NCBI GenBank assembly: GCA_020832375.1
Contig: JAFIEW010000030.1
Location: 1-36,182, forward strand
Length of the DNA: 36,182 nucleotides
Origin: Cyclobacteriaceae bacterium
GTDB taxonomy: Bacteria > Bacteroidota > Bacteroidia > Cytophagales > Cyclobacteriaceae
Direction of reading: 5' to 3'
The translations under genes and the position numbers were made by a program. Shown here in pieces: positions 22,490-28,021 of the stretch (position 1 is the first letter of the stretch; each line of letters starts with the position of its first letter). The notes beneath the pieces are model-generated. The model was not told where the DNA came from. It saw nothing but the letters and a program-made list of their open reading frames with translations, and ran no database searches.

Positions 22490-23953
22490 ATGAGCAATAA
22501 AAAAGTGGTAATCATAGGTGCTGGCATAGCGGGCTTAGCATCGGCTGTGAGGATGGCTGTAAGAGGATATGAAGTTGAGGTTTTGGAAGGCAATGCTTTC
22601 CCGGGCGGTAAGCTGAGTGAATTTCGTTTGAGAAACTATCGCTTTGATGCAGGGCCTTCACTATTTACTATGCCAGAGTATGTAAAAGAGCTATTTGACT
22701 TGGCAGGTAAGCCAATGGAGAAATATTTTGCCTACGATCGCCTAGCTGTAAATTGTCATTATTTTTATGAAGATGGCACTTTTATCAAAGCCTATGCAGA
22801 CATAGATCGGTTTATACAGGAGGTGCACGATAAGACAGGAGAGCCTGTGGAAAACTTAGAGAAAGCATTGAAAAAAAGTGAGGAGTTGTATCGCTACCTG
22901 AGTCCTGTTTTTATGGAGAGAAGTGTACATAAGGCCTCTACTTTTTTGAATAAAGATGCACTAAAAGCCTACTCTAAAATTCACCGCTTTGATTTTTTCC
23001 GAACAATGGATGAGGCTAATCGAGCCGCATTTGATGATGATCGGGTGGTGCAACTTTTCAATCGGTATGCAACTTACAATGGTAGTAATCCTTATCAGGC
23101 ACCTGCGACTTTAAACATCATTCCAAGCTTAGAATTTCATAAAGGAGCTTACTTTCCACGTAGAGGAATGTATAGTATTACCTTGGCAATCTTCAATTTG
23201 GCAAAAGATTTAGGGGTAAAGTTTCATTTTAATCAGAAGGTCGATCGTATCATTCATAAAGGGGGAAGAGCGATAGGAGTGGCCACTGATCGAGCTGAGA
23301 TTGCTGCAGATATAATTATTAACAATCGGGATGTGGTGAATACCTATAAAGATCTTTTGCCTGATGTGAAGGCACCAAAACGATTGGTGAGTCAAGAAAA
23401 ATCGAGTAGCGCGCTTATTTTTTATTGGGGAATGAAGAAAAGTTTTGAGCAGCTTGATTTGCACAATATCTTTTTTACCAAAGATTATGAGAAGGAGTTT
23501 GCTGCGATTTTTTCAGGCACGCTTTATGAAGATCCGACCGTATATGTCAACATCAGTTCAAAGTATGAACCTGCAGATGCTCCCATAGGCTGTGAAAATT
23601 GGTTTACCATGATCAATGTACCCAATAATTCAGGCCAAGATTGGGCGGAGCTGGTGAAGCAAGCACGACAGATGATTATCGATAAGCTAAGTCGTATGTT
23701 GGATTTTCCGATCGGCGGTTTAATTGAAGTAGAGGAAGTCCTAGATCCTATTCGTATTGAGAGTCGCACAAGCTCTGCGCAAGGTTCGCTTTATGGAAAT
23801 AGTAGTAACAATAAGTTTGCTGCATTTTTGAGGCATTCTAATCGCTCTTCAAAAATAAAGAATCTATATTTTTGTGGGGGGAGTGTGCATCCTGGAGGAG
23901 GAATTCCTTTGAGTCTGCTTTCTGCCAAATTGGTAGATGATTGGGTCAAATAA
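22490..23953 (+). CDS. Carotenoid desaturase of the CrtI/CrtD family
   Basis: The 487-residue FAD-dependent amine-oxidase-fold protein begins with the dinucleotide-binding motif VVIIGAGIAGLASAVRMA (6-23) then the acidic end of strand 2 and FPGGKLSEFR. The C-terminal FCGGSVHPGGGIPLSLLSAK is the carotenoid desaturase signature. YATYNGSNPYQAPATLNIIP and KGAYFPRRGMYSI are the mid-protein family blocks. Length is normal (~490). These enzymes act on membrane carotenoids (phytoene desaturation or 3,4-desaturation of hydroxy-carotenoids). The lone position without crtB and the general look suggest the CrtD (1-hydroxycarotenoid 3,4-desaturase) branch, but I cannot separate CrtI from CrtD by eye. It has its own -7 element and a terminator 93 bp downstream. 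The next operon makes pteridines behind a candidate operator, so joint light-related control is an idea worth testing. Confidence 0.9.
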   Translation: MSNKKVVIIGAGIAGLASAVRMAVRGYEVEVLEGNAFPGGKLSEFRLRNYRFDAGPSLFTMPEYVKELFDLAGKPMEKYFAYDRLAVNCHYFYEDGTFIKAYADIDRFIQEVHDKTGEPVENLEKALKKSEELYRYLSPVFMERSVHKASTFLNKDALKAYSKIHRFDFFRTMDEANRAAFDDDRVVQLFNRYATYNGSNPYQAPATLNIIPSLEFHKGAYFPRRGMYSITLAIFNLAKDLGVKFHFNQKVDRIIHKGGRAIGVATDRAEIAADIIINNRDVVNTYKDLLPDVKAPKRLVSQEKSSSALIFYWGMKKSFEQLDLHNIFFTKDYEKEFAAIFSGTLYEDPTVYVNISSKYEPADAPIGCENWFTMINVPNNSGQDWAELVKQARQMIIDKLSRMLDFPIGGLIEVEEVLDPIRIESRTSSAQGSLYGNSSNNKFAAFLRHSNRSSKIKNLYFCGGSVHPGGGIPLSLLSAKLVDDWVK

Positions 23954-24046: not shown

Positions 24047-24081
24047 AGCCAGTGGCCTCAATAGAGGCGCTGGCTTTTTTG
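24047..24081 (+). terminator. Intrinsic terminator of the desaturase gene
   Basis: AGCCAGTG-CCTC pairs with GAGG-CGCTGGCT around AATA (one bulged G, one G-U), followed by TTTTTT. Confidence 0.85.
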
Positions 24082-24236: not shown

Positions 24237-24647
24237 ATGCCAAAAATAGCCGTATTCAGACAAGAGCATTTCAATGCAGCTCATCGATTAAACAATCCCA
24301 ACTGGTCTGATGAAAAGAATGAAAAAGTATTTGGAAAATGCAATAACAATAACTATCACGGGCACAATTATGAATTGATAGTGAAGGTAATTGGTGAACC
24401 CGATCCTGACACTGGATATGTTGTAGATATGAAAGAGCTTAGCGATATCATCAAAGAGCACGTCTTAGATAGATTTGATCACAAAAACTTAAATTTAGAT
24501 ACCGATGAATTTAAAGATCTCAACCCCTCTGCGGAAAACATTGCAGTGGTTATTTGGAATATTTTAAGAGAGAAAATTAATAACAAGCTTGAACTAAATG
24601 TACGATTATATGAAACCCCAAGAAACTTCGTTGAATACCCCGCTTAA
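24237..24647 (+). CDS. 6-pyruvoyl-tetrahydropterin synthase (PTPS-type, BH4-like pathway)
   Basis: The 136-residue T-fold enzyme binds zinc through His16 (NAAHRL), His41 and His43 (YHGHNYEL). The catalytic Cys35 lies in VFGKCNNNNYHGHNY, with Asp81-His82 (RFDHKNLNLD) and the pterin-anchoring Glu126 (LYETPRNFVEY). The CNNxNxHGHNY and DHKNLDLD-like strings match eukaryotic PTPS, which converts 7,8-dihydroneopterin triphosphate to 6-pyruvoyl-tetrahydropterin, better than QueD, whose Cys lies closer to the His pair. It is first in an operon with folE (50-bp overlap) and an SDR, the classical order of reactions toward tetrahydrobiopterin. QueD/preQ0 function is not excluded, but no queC, queE or queF adjoins. 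A long inverted repeat lies upstream. Confidence 0.9.
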   Translation: MPKIAVFRQEHFNAAHRLNNPNWSDEKNEKVFGKCNNNNYHGHNYELIVKVIGEPDPDTGYVVDMKELSDIIKEHVLDRFDHKNLNLDTDEFKDLNPSAENIAVVIWNILREKINNKLELNVRLYETPRNFVEYPA

Positions 24648-25317
24648 AAATGGTAGTAAGCACACTGAAGAGATAGATGTAATTGGAGACAATCACATTG
24701 GCACCTCATCTGAAACACCCATGCGACCAGGAGCTTTCGATCAAGATGATGATCTTAAGATTGAGCTCATTGAAAAGCATTTCAGAGAAATCATGCATAT
24801 TTTAGGTCTAGACCTTACCGACGACAGCTTAAGAGGTACTCCTCATAGAGTAGCAAAAATGTATATCAAAGAGATATTCAGCGGTCTCAACCCAGCCAAT
24901 ATGCCTGATATCAAGCTGTTTGATAATAAGTACGGATATAATGAAATGCTCATAGAAAAGGATATTACCTTTTATTCTAATTGTGAGCATCACTTTGTAC
25001 CAATTATTGGTAAGGCACATGTTGCTTATATATCAAATGGTAAGGTTATTGGGTTATCAAAAATTAACCGTTTAGTTCAATATTTCGCTAAACGACCACA
25101 AGTACAGGAGCGATTAACAATGCAAGTTGCTGAATCGTTGAAAGAAATTTTAGGCACTGAAGATGTAGCTGTGGTCATGGATGCGAAGCATTTATGTGTC
25201 GCTTCTAGAGGTATTGAAGACGATACGAGTTCAACGACGACTTCGCAGTTTTGTGGTAAGTTTAAAGAGCATGCTACAAAATCAGAGTTTTTAAATCACA
25301 TTTATCAATCAAAATAA
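24598..25317 (+). CDS. folE: GTP cyclohydrolase I
   Basis: The 239-residue enzyme converts GTP to 7,8-dihydroneopterin triphosphate, the entry step for folate and biopterin-type cofactors. The zinc ligands are Cys129 and His132 (SNCEHHFVPIIG) and Cys200 (AKHLCVASRG). RGTPHRVAKMY (79-89), GLSKINRLVQYFAKRPQVQE (152-171) and TTTSQFCGKF are classic. The first ~45 residues form a non-conserved extension. The ATG at 24598 lies inside the PTPS gene (50-nt overlap); in-frame ATGs at 24610 and 24721 are alternatives. Tight overlap with PTPS and the following SDR argues for a dedicated biopterin-like product rather than housekeeping folate synthesis, although a second folE cannot be seen from this window. 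Confidence 0.96.
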   Translation: MYDYMKPQETSLNTPLKNGSKHTEEIDVIGDNHIGTSSETPMRPGAFDQDDDLKIELIEKHFREIMHILGLDLTDDSLRGTPHRVAKMYIKEIFSGLNPANMPDIKLFDNKYGYNEMLIEKDITFYSNCEHHFVPIIGKAHVAYISNGKVIGLSKINRLVQYFAKRPQVQERLTMQVAESLKEILGTEDVAVVMDAKHLCVASRGIEDDTSSTTTSQFCGKFKEHATKSEFLNHIYQSK

Positions 25318-25325
25318 ACATTTTT

Positions 25326-26036
25326 ATGAGTACCGAGAATAAAAACATTGTCATCATAGGAGGAAGCACAGGAGTAGGGTCGTCGTTAATCAAGCAGCTG
25401 GGCAAAGAAGGAGCCAACCTGCACGTATATGGACGAACTGAGTCTGATGAAATGAAGGAAGCCGGTGCTAACTATAATAGTTTCGATGTACTAAAAGATG
25501 AACTTAATAATTTGCCTGAGGAAATTCATGGTTTGGTTTATTTGCCAGGATCTATCAATTTGAAACCATTCAATAGGCTTAAAGATAAAGACTTCAGTAA
25601 TGATTTCGAGATCAACGTTTTGGGTGCTGTAAAAGTGCTGCAGGCTTGTCACGATGGTCTTAAGAAAGCCAAAGGTAGCTCTGTAGTGTTATATAGTACG
25701 GTAGCAGTAGGTACGGGAATGAATTTTCATGCTAGTATTGCTGCTGCGAAAGGGGCGTTAGAAGGTTTGGGGCGATCTTTAGCCGCTGAGTGGGCATCTA
25801 CACAGATTAGAGTCAATTTAATTGCTCCTTCACTTACCGACACACCTCTAGCAAAAAAGTTACTTTCGTCAGAAGATAAAAAAGAAGCATCCGATAAGCG
25901 TCATCCTATTGGTAGGGTGGGCGAGGCGTCCGATATTGCATCTATAAGTGCTTTCCTTTTATCTAGTCAGTCTTCCTGGATTACAGGACAAGTGATTGGT
26001 GTTGATGGAGGCATGGGTAATTTAAAACCTTTGTAA
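25326..26036 (+). CDS. Short-chain dehydrogenase/reductase in the pteridine operon, lacking the catalytic Tyr
   Basis: The 236-residue Rossmann protein has the cofactor loop IIGGSTGVGSSLI (10-22) and the C-terminal ITGQVIGVDGGMG. The active-site region reads STVAVGTGMNFHASIAAAKG: Ser124 and Lys142 are present, but the position four before Lys, normally Tyr in YxxxK, is Ile138. Such FHASIAAAKGA-type SDRs appear to be a distinct subfamily; catalysis may use another residue, or the protein may be non-canonical. Its place 8 bp after folE suggests the reductase that would take 6-pyruvoyl-tetrahydropterin further (sepiapterin or dihydromonapterin reductase role). The gene order supports that and the missing Tyr argues against simple transfer of the annotation. 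Confidence 0.85.
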   Translation: MSTENKNIVIIGGSTGVGSSLIKQLGKEGANLHVYGRTESDEMKEAGANYNSFDVLKDELNNLPEEIHGLVYLPGSINLKPFNRLKDKDFSNDFEINVLGAVKVLQACHDGLKKAKGSSVVLYSTVAVGTGMNFHASIAAAKGALEGLGRSLAAEWASTQIRVNLIAPSLTDTPLAKKLLSSEDKKEASDKRHPIGRVGEASDIASISAFLLSSQSSWITGQVIGVDGGMGNLKPL

Positions 26037-26087
26037 CCCAATAGTCAAGCGAGCGTTATATAAATAAAATAAAAGAACGTTAAAATA

Positions 26088-26525
26088 ATGAGCACAACGA
26101 CAAAAGATGGTTTCGTACTAGCGCTAGTTGAGGACTTCAAATACGCAGAAATTCATATGGTAGAAGGTACTAAGACTTGTATTGTATCTGCTGTAAAAAA
26201 TTACATTCCCATCGGTGATTTTAAAAAGCTTTTTGCCAAGATAGGTGAATTAACAAAAGCTGGAAAAGTCAATAAATTGGTGTTTGATAAAAGAAACTTG
26301 ACAGTATTTCATCAGCCTTCTATGGAATGGTATTTTATAGAATGGAAAGAAGAAATGTTTACTCACGGTCTTAAAACACATCGTAAGATTTTACCAAATG
26401 ATCGTGTATTTCAAGAGAGTGTAAAGATTGGAAGAGAAAAGATATTTCATGAAAACCCTGAAATAAAGGCTCGTGATATGGATATACAGTATGCAGATAG
26501 CTTGAAAGAAGCCATAGAGAAATAA
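26088..26525 (+). CDS. Uncharacterised ~145-aa protein, paralogue A, last gene of the pteridine operon
   Basis: I do not recognise a named family for this 145-residue protein. It has no signal peptide or membrane segment. The N-terminal half alternates hydrophobic strands (EIHMVEGTKTCIVSAVKNYI) and helices (FKKLFAKIGELTKAG), somewhat like a STAS/SpoIIAA-type fold, but that is only an impression. The most conserved part, shared with the protein at 26946-27380, is KLVFDKRNLTVFHQPSMEWY (about 64-83), then FIEWKEEM, HRKILP and a C-terminal YADSLKEAI. It starts 51 bp after the SDR stop and a strong terminator follows 26 bp after its own stop, so it belongs to the PTPS-folE-SDR transcript. A partner or sensor role linked to pterins or flavins is conceivable but unsupported. 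Confidence 0.75.
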   Translation: MSTTTKDGFVLALVEDFKYAEIHMVEGTKTCIVSAVKNYIPIGDFKKLFAKIGELTKAGKVNKLVFDKRNLTVFHQPSMEWYFIEWKEEMFTHGLKTHRKILPNDRVFQESVKIGREKIFHENPEIKARDMDIQYADSLKEAIEK

Positions 26526-26551: not shown

Positions 26552-26588
26552 AAGCTTTTCTCTCATGATTTGAGAGAGAAGCTTTTTT
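26552..26588 (+). terminator. Strong intrinsic terminator closing the pteridine operon
   Basis: A 14-bp stem AAGCTTTTCTCTCA (26552-26565) with TGAGAGAGAAGCTT (26571-26584), one G-U pair, 5-nt loop TGATT and a T6 tail. Confidence 0.93.
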
Positions 26589-26669
26589 GTTTGAGTAAAG
26601 TTAAACATATCCTTTTTTTGAAGGTTATAGTGTTGATAATTAGTTAGAAATAGAGCAGCCAATCCATAT

Positions 26670-26933
26670 ATGAAGACGCCCCCGGAATCATTTTTAATAT
26701 TGAAAGAGGAATTAGCAAAAGAAAAGAAAGCTAAAAAACGTATTCAAGAGAAGTACGAGGAGAAAATTTCGCAATTGAATGAAGAACTCTCTTTCCTGAA
26801 TGAACAGATTATGTCTCAGCAGAATATGATGAAGACAACTATTGACTATGCTAACCGTTTGGAAAAGGAGTTGAACTCACTGAAAAGAGATATTAACGGA
26901 AACAAAACGAAGGCAAGAACTTCTTTTCATTAA
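26670..26933 (+). CDS. Small coiled-coil protein
   Basis: The 87-residue protein is almost entirely charged and helical: from about residue 12 to 77 it shows heptad-like spacing of Leu/Ile/Met with dense Lys and Glu (EELAKEKKAKKRIQEKYEEK, then ISQLNEELSFLNEQIM). It has no signal peptide, membrane segment or cysteine. No family is recognised. It starts 82 bp after the operon terminator and is followed by the 144-aa protein after only 12 bp, so it opens a second unit (coiled coil, 144-aa protein, flavin reductase-like, MBL exonuclease). It may be a scaffold or oligomerisation partner for the following paralogue, which is inference from adjacency. Confidence 0.65.
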   Translation: MKTPPESFLILKEELAKEKKAKKRIQEKYEEKISQLNEELSFLNEQIMSQQNMMKTTIDYANRLEKELNSLKRDINGNKTKARTSFH

Positions 26934-26945
26934 ATAAAATAAGCT

Positions 26946-27380
26946 ATGGACCTCATAAGCGCAGAATTGCCTCTAGAAATTGCAGTAGATGATCGGTTTG
27001 CTTTGATAGCCTATGATAAAGAATCTGGCGTTATTTATTGCAAGTTGAAAGAAGAGTATACTCCGATTAAGTTTTTTAAAAGCACCTTGCTTAAAGTTTC
27101 CGACCTAGTAGCCTCTGGCATTAATAAAAAATTTATTCTTGATAAATCTAATTTAAAAGCTTTTCATCAGCCTTCTATGCGGTGGTATTTCACAGAGTGG
27201 AAAGTAGATCTCAAAGCAATGGGACTTAACAAACACAGAAAAATATTGCCTCAAGAAGAGTGGTTTAGGAAAATAGTAGAGCTAGAAAGAAATAAAATTC
27301 TAGAAGAATGGGATGGTGACTTTTTTGAACAATTTGATCTAAAATACTGCGAAACCGTAGAAGAAGCATTCCAATCATGA
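26946..27380 (+). CDS. Uncharacterised ~145-aa protein, paralogue B
   Basis: The 144-residue protein is homologous to the product of 26088-26525. Shared features are KFILDKSNLKAFHQPSMRWY, FTEWKVDLKAMGL, NKHRKILPQEEWF and the closing YCETVEEA, in the same order and spacing. The N-terminal half is more divergent (FALIAYDKESGVIYCKLKEE). It is cytoplasmic by composition. Its stop overlaps the start of the flavin reductase-like gene (ATGA, 27377-27380), indicating translational coupling to that protein. The two paralogues are thus each tied to cofactor genes, one to pterin synthesis and one to a flavoprotein. No named family or catalytic motif is recognised; the invariant FHQPSM-WYF stretch is the best candidate for a functional site. 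Confidence 0.75.
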   Translation: MDLISAELPLEIAVDDRFALIAYDKESGVIYCKLKEEYTPIKFFKSTLLKVSDLVASGINKKFILDKSNLKAFHQPSMRWYFTEWKVDLKAMGLNKHRKILPQEEWFRKIVELERNKILEEWDGDFFEQFDLKYCETVEEAFQS

Positions 27381-28021
27381 ATGAGCAAATCAATTATACG
27401 CTAGATAAAATTAATCAACTGCCTTCCCGATTTAGAGGGCAAATGATGAATAGCCTTTCCGGATTTAAAAATACCGTTTTAATAGGAAGTCAAAACTCGC
27501 AAGGAGATACCAATCTAGCCATATTTAGTCAAGTTTTCCATATAGGAGCCAACCCACCAGCTTTAGGCATTCTTTTTAGACCACATACAGTTGCGCGTCA
27601 CACCTTAGAAAATATATTAGAACACCGCTATTTTACTGTTAATTATATCCCTATGAATTACGCCTCGGAAGCTCATCATACGGCTGCAAAATGGGATGGT
27701 TCAGAGTTTGAGCATTGTGGTTTTGGTGTTGATTATCAAAATGAGTTTCCTGCACCTTATGTGAAAGAAAGCACAGTGAGGTTAGGTTTATCATATGAGG
27801 AACATTCTAAAATCACTTTTAATGATACCATCCTACTTGTTGGTAAAGTGCTAGAGGTGAGCTTTCCTTCATGTTTTCAGAAGGAAGACGGATACGTGGA
27901 CTTGAGCAAAGGTAACTTTGCTATGGGTACGGGTATGGATGCTTATCATTCTGTAAGTAGGGGTATTCGGTTTAGTTACCCTGAGCCTCATGAAAAGCCG
28001 AAAATTATAAGGTATGTATAA
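27377..28021 (+). CDS. Flavin reductase-like FMN-binding protein
   Basis: The 214-residue split-barrel protein of the flavin reductase-like family binds FMN and typically reduces flavin with NAD(P)H or serves as a flavoprotein. Recognisable parts are the nucleotide-binding core (NLAIFSQVFHIGANPPALGI, ~46-65), FRPHTVARHTLENILEH and the region EAHHTAAKWDGSEFEHCGF. This layout (HxTAAKxDxSEFE) is typical of the subgroup found in Bacteroidota. It has no signal peptide. It overlaps the preceding 144-aa protein gene by 4 nt, and the next gene starts directly after its stop, so it is inside a tightly packed operon. Substrate unknown. Confidence 0.88.
   Translation: MNEQINYTLDKINQLPSRFRGQMMNSLSGFKNTVLIGSQNSQGDTNLAIFSQVFHIGANPPALGILFRPHTVARHTLENILEHRYFTVNYIPMNYASEAHHTAAKWDGSEFEHCGFGVDYQNEFPAPYVKESTVRLGLSYEEHSKITFNDTILLVGKVLEVSFPSCFQKEDGYVDLSKGNFAMGTGMDAYHSVSRGIRFSYPEPHEKPKIIRYV

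Follow-up and report, generated by a model that had tools for sequence, protein, structure and literature searches.

A four-gene operon (positions 24,237 to 26,525) was analysed in a stretch of DNA of 36,182 nucleotides, referred to here as the window, from a Cyclobacteriaceae bacterium (assembly GCA_020832375.1, contig JAFIEW010000030.1). The operon encodes a predicted 6-pyruvoyl-tetrahydropterin synthase (PTPS), a GTP cyclohydrolase I (FolE), a protein with the short-chain dehydrogenase/reductase (SDR) fold and a 145-residue protein. The interpretation that we somewhat favour is that this operon is the pterin arm of a light/UV-response module of the Bacteroidota. A first-pass annotation of the window had suggested a light regulon; gene clusters and an inverted repeat in related genomes agree with that suggestion, but the element in the window is degenerate and the light-related loci of the same genome lack it. 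From sequence data, the link with light appears strong for the Bacteroidota and only moderate for the genome under study.

Results

Gene neighbourhoods of the SDR

Regions around SDR and ptps genes were fetched from relatives, the later ones at one per genus, and 80 named loci (the best 80 of 586) were added. SDR matches below 40% identity were dropped and SDRs with identical last 150 residues were counted once. The neighbourhood counts refer to the 116 of 154 distinct SDRs that were flanked on both sides by 6 kb or more, a neighbour being a gene within 7.5 kb. Gene calls were mechanical open reading frames (ORFs), stretches L267, L269 and L270 being outside the analysis, and neighbours were labelled by BLAST matches to Pfam-checked representatives, with the SRPBCC label assigned partly by eye.

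The SDR had folE as a neighbour in 46 of these loci, ptps in 40, a flavin reductase in 37 and a photolyase/cryptochrome gene in 33, with SRPBCC (9), DUF2867 (12) and DUF2805 (7) genes being less frequent. Either folE or a photolyase was present in 76 loci, and any member of the gene set in 88. Only about 0.6 folE and 3.3 photolyase neighbours are expected by chance, assuming a 3.3-Mb genome with one folE and six photolyase-type genes. The flavin-reductase-like protein recurred with the SDR in both the folE and the photolyase contexts, and folE and photolyase occurred together near the SDR in four loci, one of them outside the 116.

The most complete arrangement was a tight run of MerR(B12)-ECF-crtI-crtB-idi-ptps-folE-SDR-flavR-photolyase, which was found in two metagenome-assembled genomes (MAGs), L232 (Flavobacteriales MAG ih4) and L239 (Crocinitomicaceae MAG), and from the ECF sigma factor gene onward no gap in the run exceeds 11 bases. 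The families in this run were checked; the family of crtB is squalene/phytoene synthase, and its assignment as CrtB comes from context. Locus L168 combines a MerR protein with a B12 domain, ECF, folE, SDR, flavR, photolyase, SRPBCC and DPRP genes, and L213 carries photolyase, DUF2805, ptps, folE, SDR and flavR. L232, L239 and L213 are MAGs in which misbinning is possible, and each run lies within a single contig.

At L151, L198 and L200, and also at L183, all from Hymenobacter where named, pairs of SDR and photolyase genes were accompanied within 7.5 kb by one or two genes for phenylalanine hydroxylase (PAH). This is a further link of the gene set with pterin use.

The co-occurrence of the SDR with other genes was assessed in 241 genomes, in a comparison that ignores phylogeny and in which the negatives include small reduced genomes. 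SDR orthologues were present in 174 of the 241 genomes at E 1e-35, including 112 of the 122 genomes with DPRP versus 62 of the 119 without it. They were likewise found in 125 of the 148 genomes with PAH versus 49 of the 93 without. DPRP and PAH were unassociated with each other.

An inverted repeat in front of pterin and photolyase clusters

Genes for ptps below 62% identity and upstream gaps shorter than 100 bp were left out of the promoter sets; the 62% limit was also applied in the element survey and the MerR comparison. Word counts identified TTTGTTTAA in 23 of 42 non-redundant ptps upstream regions, against 1.5 expected, an enrichment that is partly circular because the arm sequence itself came from word counts in these regions. 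The word is one arm of an inverted repeat, TTTGTTTAA-N16/17-TTAAACAAA, whose fixed spacer played no part in the word count. When at most one mismatch was allowed in 193 loci (2.85 Mb), the spacer was 16 in 38 copies and 17 in 8 copies, and every other spacer from 0 to 40 had at most 3 copies. No copies were found in one second-order Markov simulation, and none with a spacer of 16 or 17 in 20 control stretches from 4 genomes (400 kb).

The 46 copies with a spacer of 16 or 17 were all non-redundant by flank, and 42 of them were nearest to genes of the light/pterin set: ptps (27), crtD (1, in a gap shared with ptps), ECF (6), SRPBCC (5), and flavR, SDR and MerR (1 each). Three copies were nearest to unknown genes and one to none. 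The copies at SRPBCC genes precede SRPBCC-SDR-photolyase clusters in Salegentibacter (two), Psychroflexus, Leeuwenhoekiella and Christiangramia. The fixed spacer, the copies at ECF and SRPBCC genes and the control are the independent part of this evidence.

The arms contain TAAACA, which fits the half-site TnnACA reported for CarH (PMC9304148). The association of the repeat with these genes was observed directly, and we infer from it that a MerR protein may bind the repeat. Tandem direct repeats of the CarH type (TnnACA at 11 bp) were considered and dropped, because many of the listed copies turned out to be fragments of the inverted repeat; they occurred in 11 of 50 ptps upstream regions versus 37 of 1067 others at up to two mismatches, and in 0 of the 50 at up to one.

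A perfect N16 element was also present at L257 4710-4743, 11 bp before an unassigned gene and upstream of a DUF2867-photolyase-SDR cluster. This gene is possibly a further member of the regulon.

PTPS and FolE

All four ORFs of the operon proposed by the first-pass annotation were recovered, in the same direction and with tight spacing, and the first three had Pfam matches (PTPS, 123.4 bits; GTP_cyclohydroI, 215.3 bits; the SDR score is in Table 1). The eukaryotic-type motifs noted for PTPS, GKCNNNNYHGHNY and DHKNLNLD, are present, and its CxxxxxHGH spacing is that of PTPS-II; the definitions of this motif and of the PTPS-III motif, which bypasses FolB, were those given in PMC5041015. The best PDB matches were entries named PTPS (1e-32 to 5e-28), compared with 4e-8 or weaker for entries named QueD and 2e-9 for a Pseudomonas-type entry. 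The PTPS-II motif was found in 76 of 77 ptps genes of the loci (some of which overlap), and the QueD motif CxxxHGH in none. The only gene without it, at L069 (G013:C1:2952490-2952885), is a divergent third paralogue of PTPS that has lost the catalytic Cys motif, the gene otherwise lacking the QueD motif as well.

A FastTree phylogeny of 43 Bacteroidota genes and 5 references split the two QueD references from all animal and Bacteroidota PTPS with a support of 1.0, so the tree that could have placed the protein with QueD separated the two. The folE-linked genes and the second PTPS paralogues formed one Bacteroidota branch (0.934) beside animal PTPS. A search of the window's own genome for QueC returned a single match, an argininosuccinate synthase, and hence no QueC, with QueE and QueF outside the search; among 29 genomes of the order, full-length QueC was found in G025 alone (216.8 bits). 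By its motifs and its place in the tree, the protein is a eukaryote-type PTPS-II and not QueD.

FolE is the sole PF01227 match in the genome and passed two equivalog models (NF006824, 290.8 against a cut-off of 202; TIGR00063, 243.5 against 181.6). Of the 29 genomes searched in the order, 27 have ptps adjoining folE, a count that includes one fragment at a contig end and one pair with a 281-bp gap; this adjacency is more than chance. A tetrahydrobiopterin (BH4)-type route as far as 6-pyruvoyl-tetrahydropterin is well supported at the level of gene content, because PTPS-II and FolE are encoded, no QueC was found and PAH is present.

The same genome encodes another PTPS-II (L002 1489-1914, contig C175), a paralogue with 53% identity to that of the operon, and at least two PTPS matches were present in 26 of the 29 genomes. 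In seven relatives (L036, L038, L042, L044, L049, L050 and L058), ptps-folE is flanked by a PAPS-reductase-domain gene and an epimerase-like gene.

An SDR without the catalytic tyrosine

The first-pass annotation had read the operon as the complete three-step BH4 route in one transcript. Two steps are upheld by sequence, but the third is not, and the single transcript was deduced from gene spacing. In 80 aligned SDR orthologues the position of the catalytic Tyr was occupied by Ile (44), Val (35) or Thr (1), and by Tyr in none, leaving the Ser-Tyr-Lys triad broken. Lys142 and His135 were invariant in 80 of 80, and 77 or more of the 80 retained each of the three nucleotide-binding glycines. A structure prediction (pLDDT 84.8) matched ordinary SDRs, and the 50 fold matches listed were of alcohol dehydrogenase, tropinone reductase, FabG and similar types. 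Sepiapterin reductase was absent from the listed PDB matches of the SDR and of its profile, as well as from these 50 fold matches. The assignment of the operon SDR as a sepiapterin reductase was made less likely by its broken triad and its different fold and profile neighbours. Because it has no catalytic Tyr and its fold neighbours are not sepiapterin reductases, the SDR is probably not the classical third enzyme of BH4 synthesis.

No match over the cut-off (206.55) of the sepiapterin reductase model TIGR01500 was found in the 29 genomes, and the best match in the window's own genome (130.2 bits) was an SDR other than that of the operon. An SDR on contig C116 has an intact triad and is more similar to sepiapterin reductase than the operon SDR; its best PDB match was 5if3, an SDR of unnamed function (1.2e-27), followed by sepiapterin reductase entries (1.6e-23). 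As a sepiapterin reductase this protein remains only a candidate, because it falls below the cut-offs of both its best model, benzil reductase PRK06924 (224.7 against 258), and TIGR01500 (134.8).

Of the 29 genomes of the order, 21 encode an orthologue of the operon SDR, and identity falls abruptly to that of the next SDR (from 44% to 33%). Orthologues were also present on contigs labelled as Desulfobacterales, Spirochaetales and Phycisphaera MAGs (L201, L210, L248 and L235), which reflects either transfer or misbinning.

Layout of the locus

The window, contig C158, belongs to a genome of 4.1 Mb with an estimated completeness of 99.99%; the features of the locus are listed in Table 1. The folE gene overlaps ptps, and its homologues begin with MKPxET or MKQxGT, which suggests the ATG at 24610 rather than that at 24598 as the start. 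The spacing of the four genes points to a single transcript. The terminator that the first-pass annotation placed after the 145-residue protein gene was recognised by eye as a long hairpin with one G-T pair followed by a T run; a pattern scan of the + strand did not list it. A carotenoid desaturase gene does lie upstream of ptps, as had been pointed out; because a second terminator separates the two, crtD is probably outside the ptps transcript, and only 6 of the 116 loci, the window included, have a CrtI-family gene as a neighbour of the SDR.

Table 1. Positions of the operon genes and adjoining features in the window.
Feature	Position	Strand	Basis
ptps: 6-pyruvoyl-tetrahydropterin synthase, PTPS-II type	24237..24647	+	PF01242 123.4 bits, CxxxxxHGH, PDB matches, tree
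folE: GTP cyclohydrolase I	24598..25317 (start probably 24610)	+	NF006824 290.8 bits, cut-off 202
SDR-fold protein without catalytic Tyr (Ile138); His135 and Lys142 invariant	25326..26036	+	adh_short_C2 136.1 bits; alignment
145-residue protein, weakly STAS-like predicted fold	26088..26525	+	structure model pLDDT 94.0
Terminator hairpin after the 145-residue protein gene	26553..26590 (about)	+	sequence read by eye
cc87: 87-residue protein, conserved neighbour, coiled-coil-like by eye	26670..26933	+	
144-residue paralogue of the 145-residue protein	26946..27380	+	35% identity, alignment
flavR: flavin-reductase-like protein	27377..28021	+	PF01613 51.4 bits
crtD: 1-hydroxycarotenoid 3,4-desaturase, separate upstream unit	22490..23953	+	NF042421 602.2 bits, cut-off 500
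Terminator between crtD and ptps	24049..24078	+	pattern scan, stem 24055-24068; outer stem by eye
Degenerate regulon element TTTGTTTAA-N6-TTGAACAAA	24078..24101	.	1 mismatch; overlaps terminator T run
Second degenerate N6 copy TTTGTTTGA-N6-TTAAACATA	26586..26609	.	2 mismatches; before cc87, starts in terminator T run

The conserved neighbourhood extends beyond the terminator and includes cc87, the paralogue of the 145-residue protein (d145), flavR and a ligase-associated exonuclease (exo). The order ptps-folE-SDR-cc87-d145-flavR-exo was kept in several loci of the same family (for example L123, L125, L128 and L138). The named loci that share it are from Algoriphagus, Belliella and similar genera, which we take to be Cyclobacteriaceae.

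The 145-residue protein, called unknown in the first-pass annotation, had no match in Pfam or NCBIfam. Its structural model is weakly STAS-like, the best PDB matches being STAS/SpoIIAA (E 4.4e-3, TM about 0.55). It shares the motif FDKxxLxxFHQPSMxWYF with its paralogue, and members in the set came mostly from the same family of genomes, L104 and L134 being from another.

Discussion

Proposed role of the operon

In the proposed scheme, FolE would make dihydroneopterin triphosphate and PTPS-II would convert it to 6-pyruvoyl-tetrahydropterin, as predicted from their families. The SDR and the flavin-reductase-like protein would act as members of the photolyase/cryptochrome gene set, performing a redox step either on the pterin or on the flavin/pterin supply of the photoenzymes. 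Because it has no catalytic Tyr, the SDR would have to use another acid, for which His135 is a candidate, or operate without proton donation. A MerR protein of the CarH/LitR type with a B12 domain, joined in some clusters by an ECF sigma factor, would control the module through putative binding to TTTGTTTAA-N16-TTAAACAAA. The product might be a biopterin-type tetrahydropterin for light protection or photoenzymes, and also for PAH. A more specific version, in which the repeat marks a wide CarH/LitR-type regulon of the Bacteroidota and FolE/PTPS-II, the SDR (with His135 as the acid) and the flavin reductase supply a chromophore or photoprotectant for photolyases and cryptochromes, is offered tentatively.

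The first-pass annotation had proposed searching the genome for PAH, photolyase/cryptochrome and a CarH/LitR-type MerR regulator; PAH, photolyase/cryptochrome genes and a CarH-like MerR protein with a B12 domain are all present. A DPRP cryptochrome and a photolyase are encoded on contig C82, and the MerR protein with a B12-binding domain (L265 8836-9735) lies beside a PF04240 carotenoid gene and a CrtZ-like PF04116 gene and contains Wx9EH and ExH.

A number of observations, together with the partial circularity of the arm enrichment, weigh against a role in the light response. In the genome under study, the element in front of ptps and of cc87 has a spacer of 6 and not 16 (a difference of 10, about one helical turn), and both N6 copies may be the result of decay or chance, because their left arms begin in the T tracts of terminators. 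No element was found at the photolyase, DPRP and crtZ-MerR loci of this genome, and no photolyase adjoins its SDR. The MerR protein has Ser after ExH (EMHEIS) where the published B12 motif has Gly/Pro and four relatives have Gly, and its NCBIfam CarH score of 98 is below the cut-off of 400. Among the relatives, the N16/17 element was present at 28 of 65 ptps genes and absent from 37, and one N6 copy was present in the 400-kb control. None of the gene set was near the SDR in 28 of the 116 loci, folE and photolyase were joint neighbours in only 3 of the 116, and ptps-folE was kept in relatives without the SDR. In the 241 genomes, the SDR is associated with PAH as well (odds ratio 4.9). The loci were chosen around ptps and SDR, and related genomes are not independent. 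In a light transcriptome of a member of the Bacteroidota, Chryseobacterium lacus, 8 up-regulated genes, mainly carotenoid genes, and no car/lit operon genes were reported, and the main text of that paper does not mention photolyase (PMC7064467). Because the genome's own loci lack the N16 element and the copies in the window are degenerate, a light role in this organism would rest on its relatives.

Alternative explanations

The operon could instead be a plain BH4 cofactor operon, in which FolE, PTPS and the SDR, as a non-orthologous sepiapterin or 6-pyruvoyl-tetrahydropterin reductase, provide BH4 for PAH and any connection with light is incidental. The PAH gene of the genome and the SDR-PAH co-occurrence described above are as this explanation would have it, as is the finding that 28 of 80 loci, mostly one per genus, have folE no more than 7.5 kb from the SDR. 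It was nevertheless judged rather unlikely: the SDR lacks the catalytic Tyr in every orthologue aligned, sepiapterin reductase is missing from its listed structural matches, a more sepiapterin reductase-like SDR with an intact triad is encoded on contig C116, and only 3 of the 116 loci have PAH as a neighbour of the SDR, all of them SDR-photolyase pairs (L151, L198 and L200).

It is improbable that folE is induced with photolyases to yield methenyl-tetrahydrofolate for the photolyase antenna, with PTPS-II as a side branch. The single copy of folE in the genome fits such a role, as do the folE-SDR pairs without ptps nearby at L168, L177 and L173, the first of which includes a photolyase, but PTPS-II, encoded next to folE in 27 of 29 genomes, would divert the precursor of folate, and it does not have the PTPS-III motif for bypassing FolB (motifs as given in PMC5041015). 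An assignment of PTPS to queuosine synthesis as QueD seems very remote. The two proteins belong to the same superfamily, and the NCBIfam QueD model was matched at 70.1 bits, below its cut-off of 89.25; the assignment fails because the Cys-His spacing is that of PTPS-II, the tree separates PTPS from QueD and a search of the genome revealed no QueC.

Comparison with known systems

For the favoured role as the pterin arm of a light/UV-response module, the nearest precedent, by analogy, is the folM-folE-folX operon of Pseudomonas mendocina, which is reported to be light-induced under a LitR protein, with an induction of about 2.5-fold for folM and 1.6- to 3.3-fold for folE, and about 27- to 33-fold for phrB (PMC9758184). 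In both systems, as far as the Pseudomonas LitR/PplR operon is described there, folE is grouped with genes for an SDR and a pterin enzyme, within a regulon (here putative) of a MerR protein of the LitR/CarH type that includes photolyase and cryptochrome. They differ in that Pseudomonas has FolX and FolM, whereas the Bacteroidota have PTPS-II, an SDR without Tyr, a flavin reductase and a different putative operator. FolX and FolM presumably represent the tetrahydromonapterin route. Bacterial BH4 synthesis by PTPS-II was reportedly described by Kong et al. in 2006. FolE and a PTPS-II with CxxxxxHGH are shared with that type of synthesis as outlined in PMC5041015, but the sequence of the third enzyme here is not that of a sepiapterin reductase, and in relatives the operon is tied to photolyase genes.

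A MerR protein with a B12 domain and Wx9EH beside carotenoid genes is also a property of the CarH/LitR carotenoid clusters, and TAAACA fits their half-site, but the systems covered by PMC9304148 use tandem 11-bp direct repeats, in contrast to the inverted repeat with a 16-bp spacer found here. The NCBIfam CarH scores obtained here (94 and 98) also fall short of the cut-off, and the genome's own protein carries the Ser substitution. A likeness exists with cyanobacteria, in which biopterin-type pterins are linked to UV-A protection and have been proposed for cryptochromes; the cyanobacterial pterins are glycosylated (PMC3546692). An operon of the Bacteroidota with PTPS, FolE, SDR and photolyase was not named in the literature titles and abstract openings searched, among which subscription journals were thinly covered, and an earlier description is possible.

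The tight clusters with a B12-type light regulator, carotenoid genes and photolyase give bacterial biopterin-type pterins a testable role in the light response, and the sequence element offers a predictor of which genes respond to light. The SDR family without Tyr, in which one His and one Lys are invariant, may carry out unusual SDR chemistry. Should the product serve as an antenna or a photoprotectant, the set of chromophores of bacterial photolyases and cryptochromes would grow.

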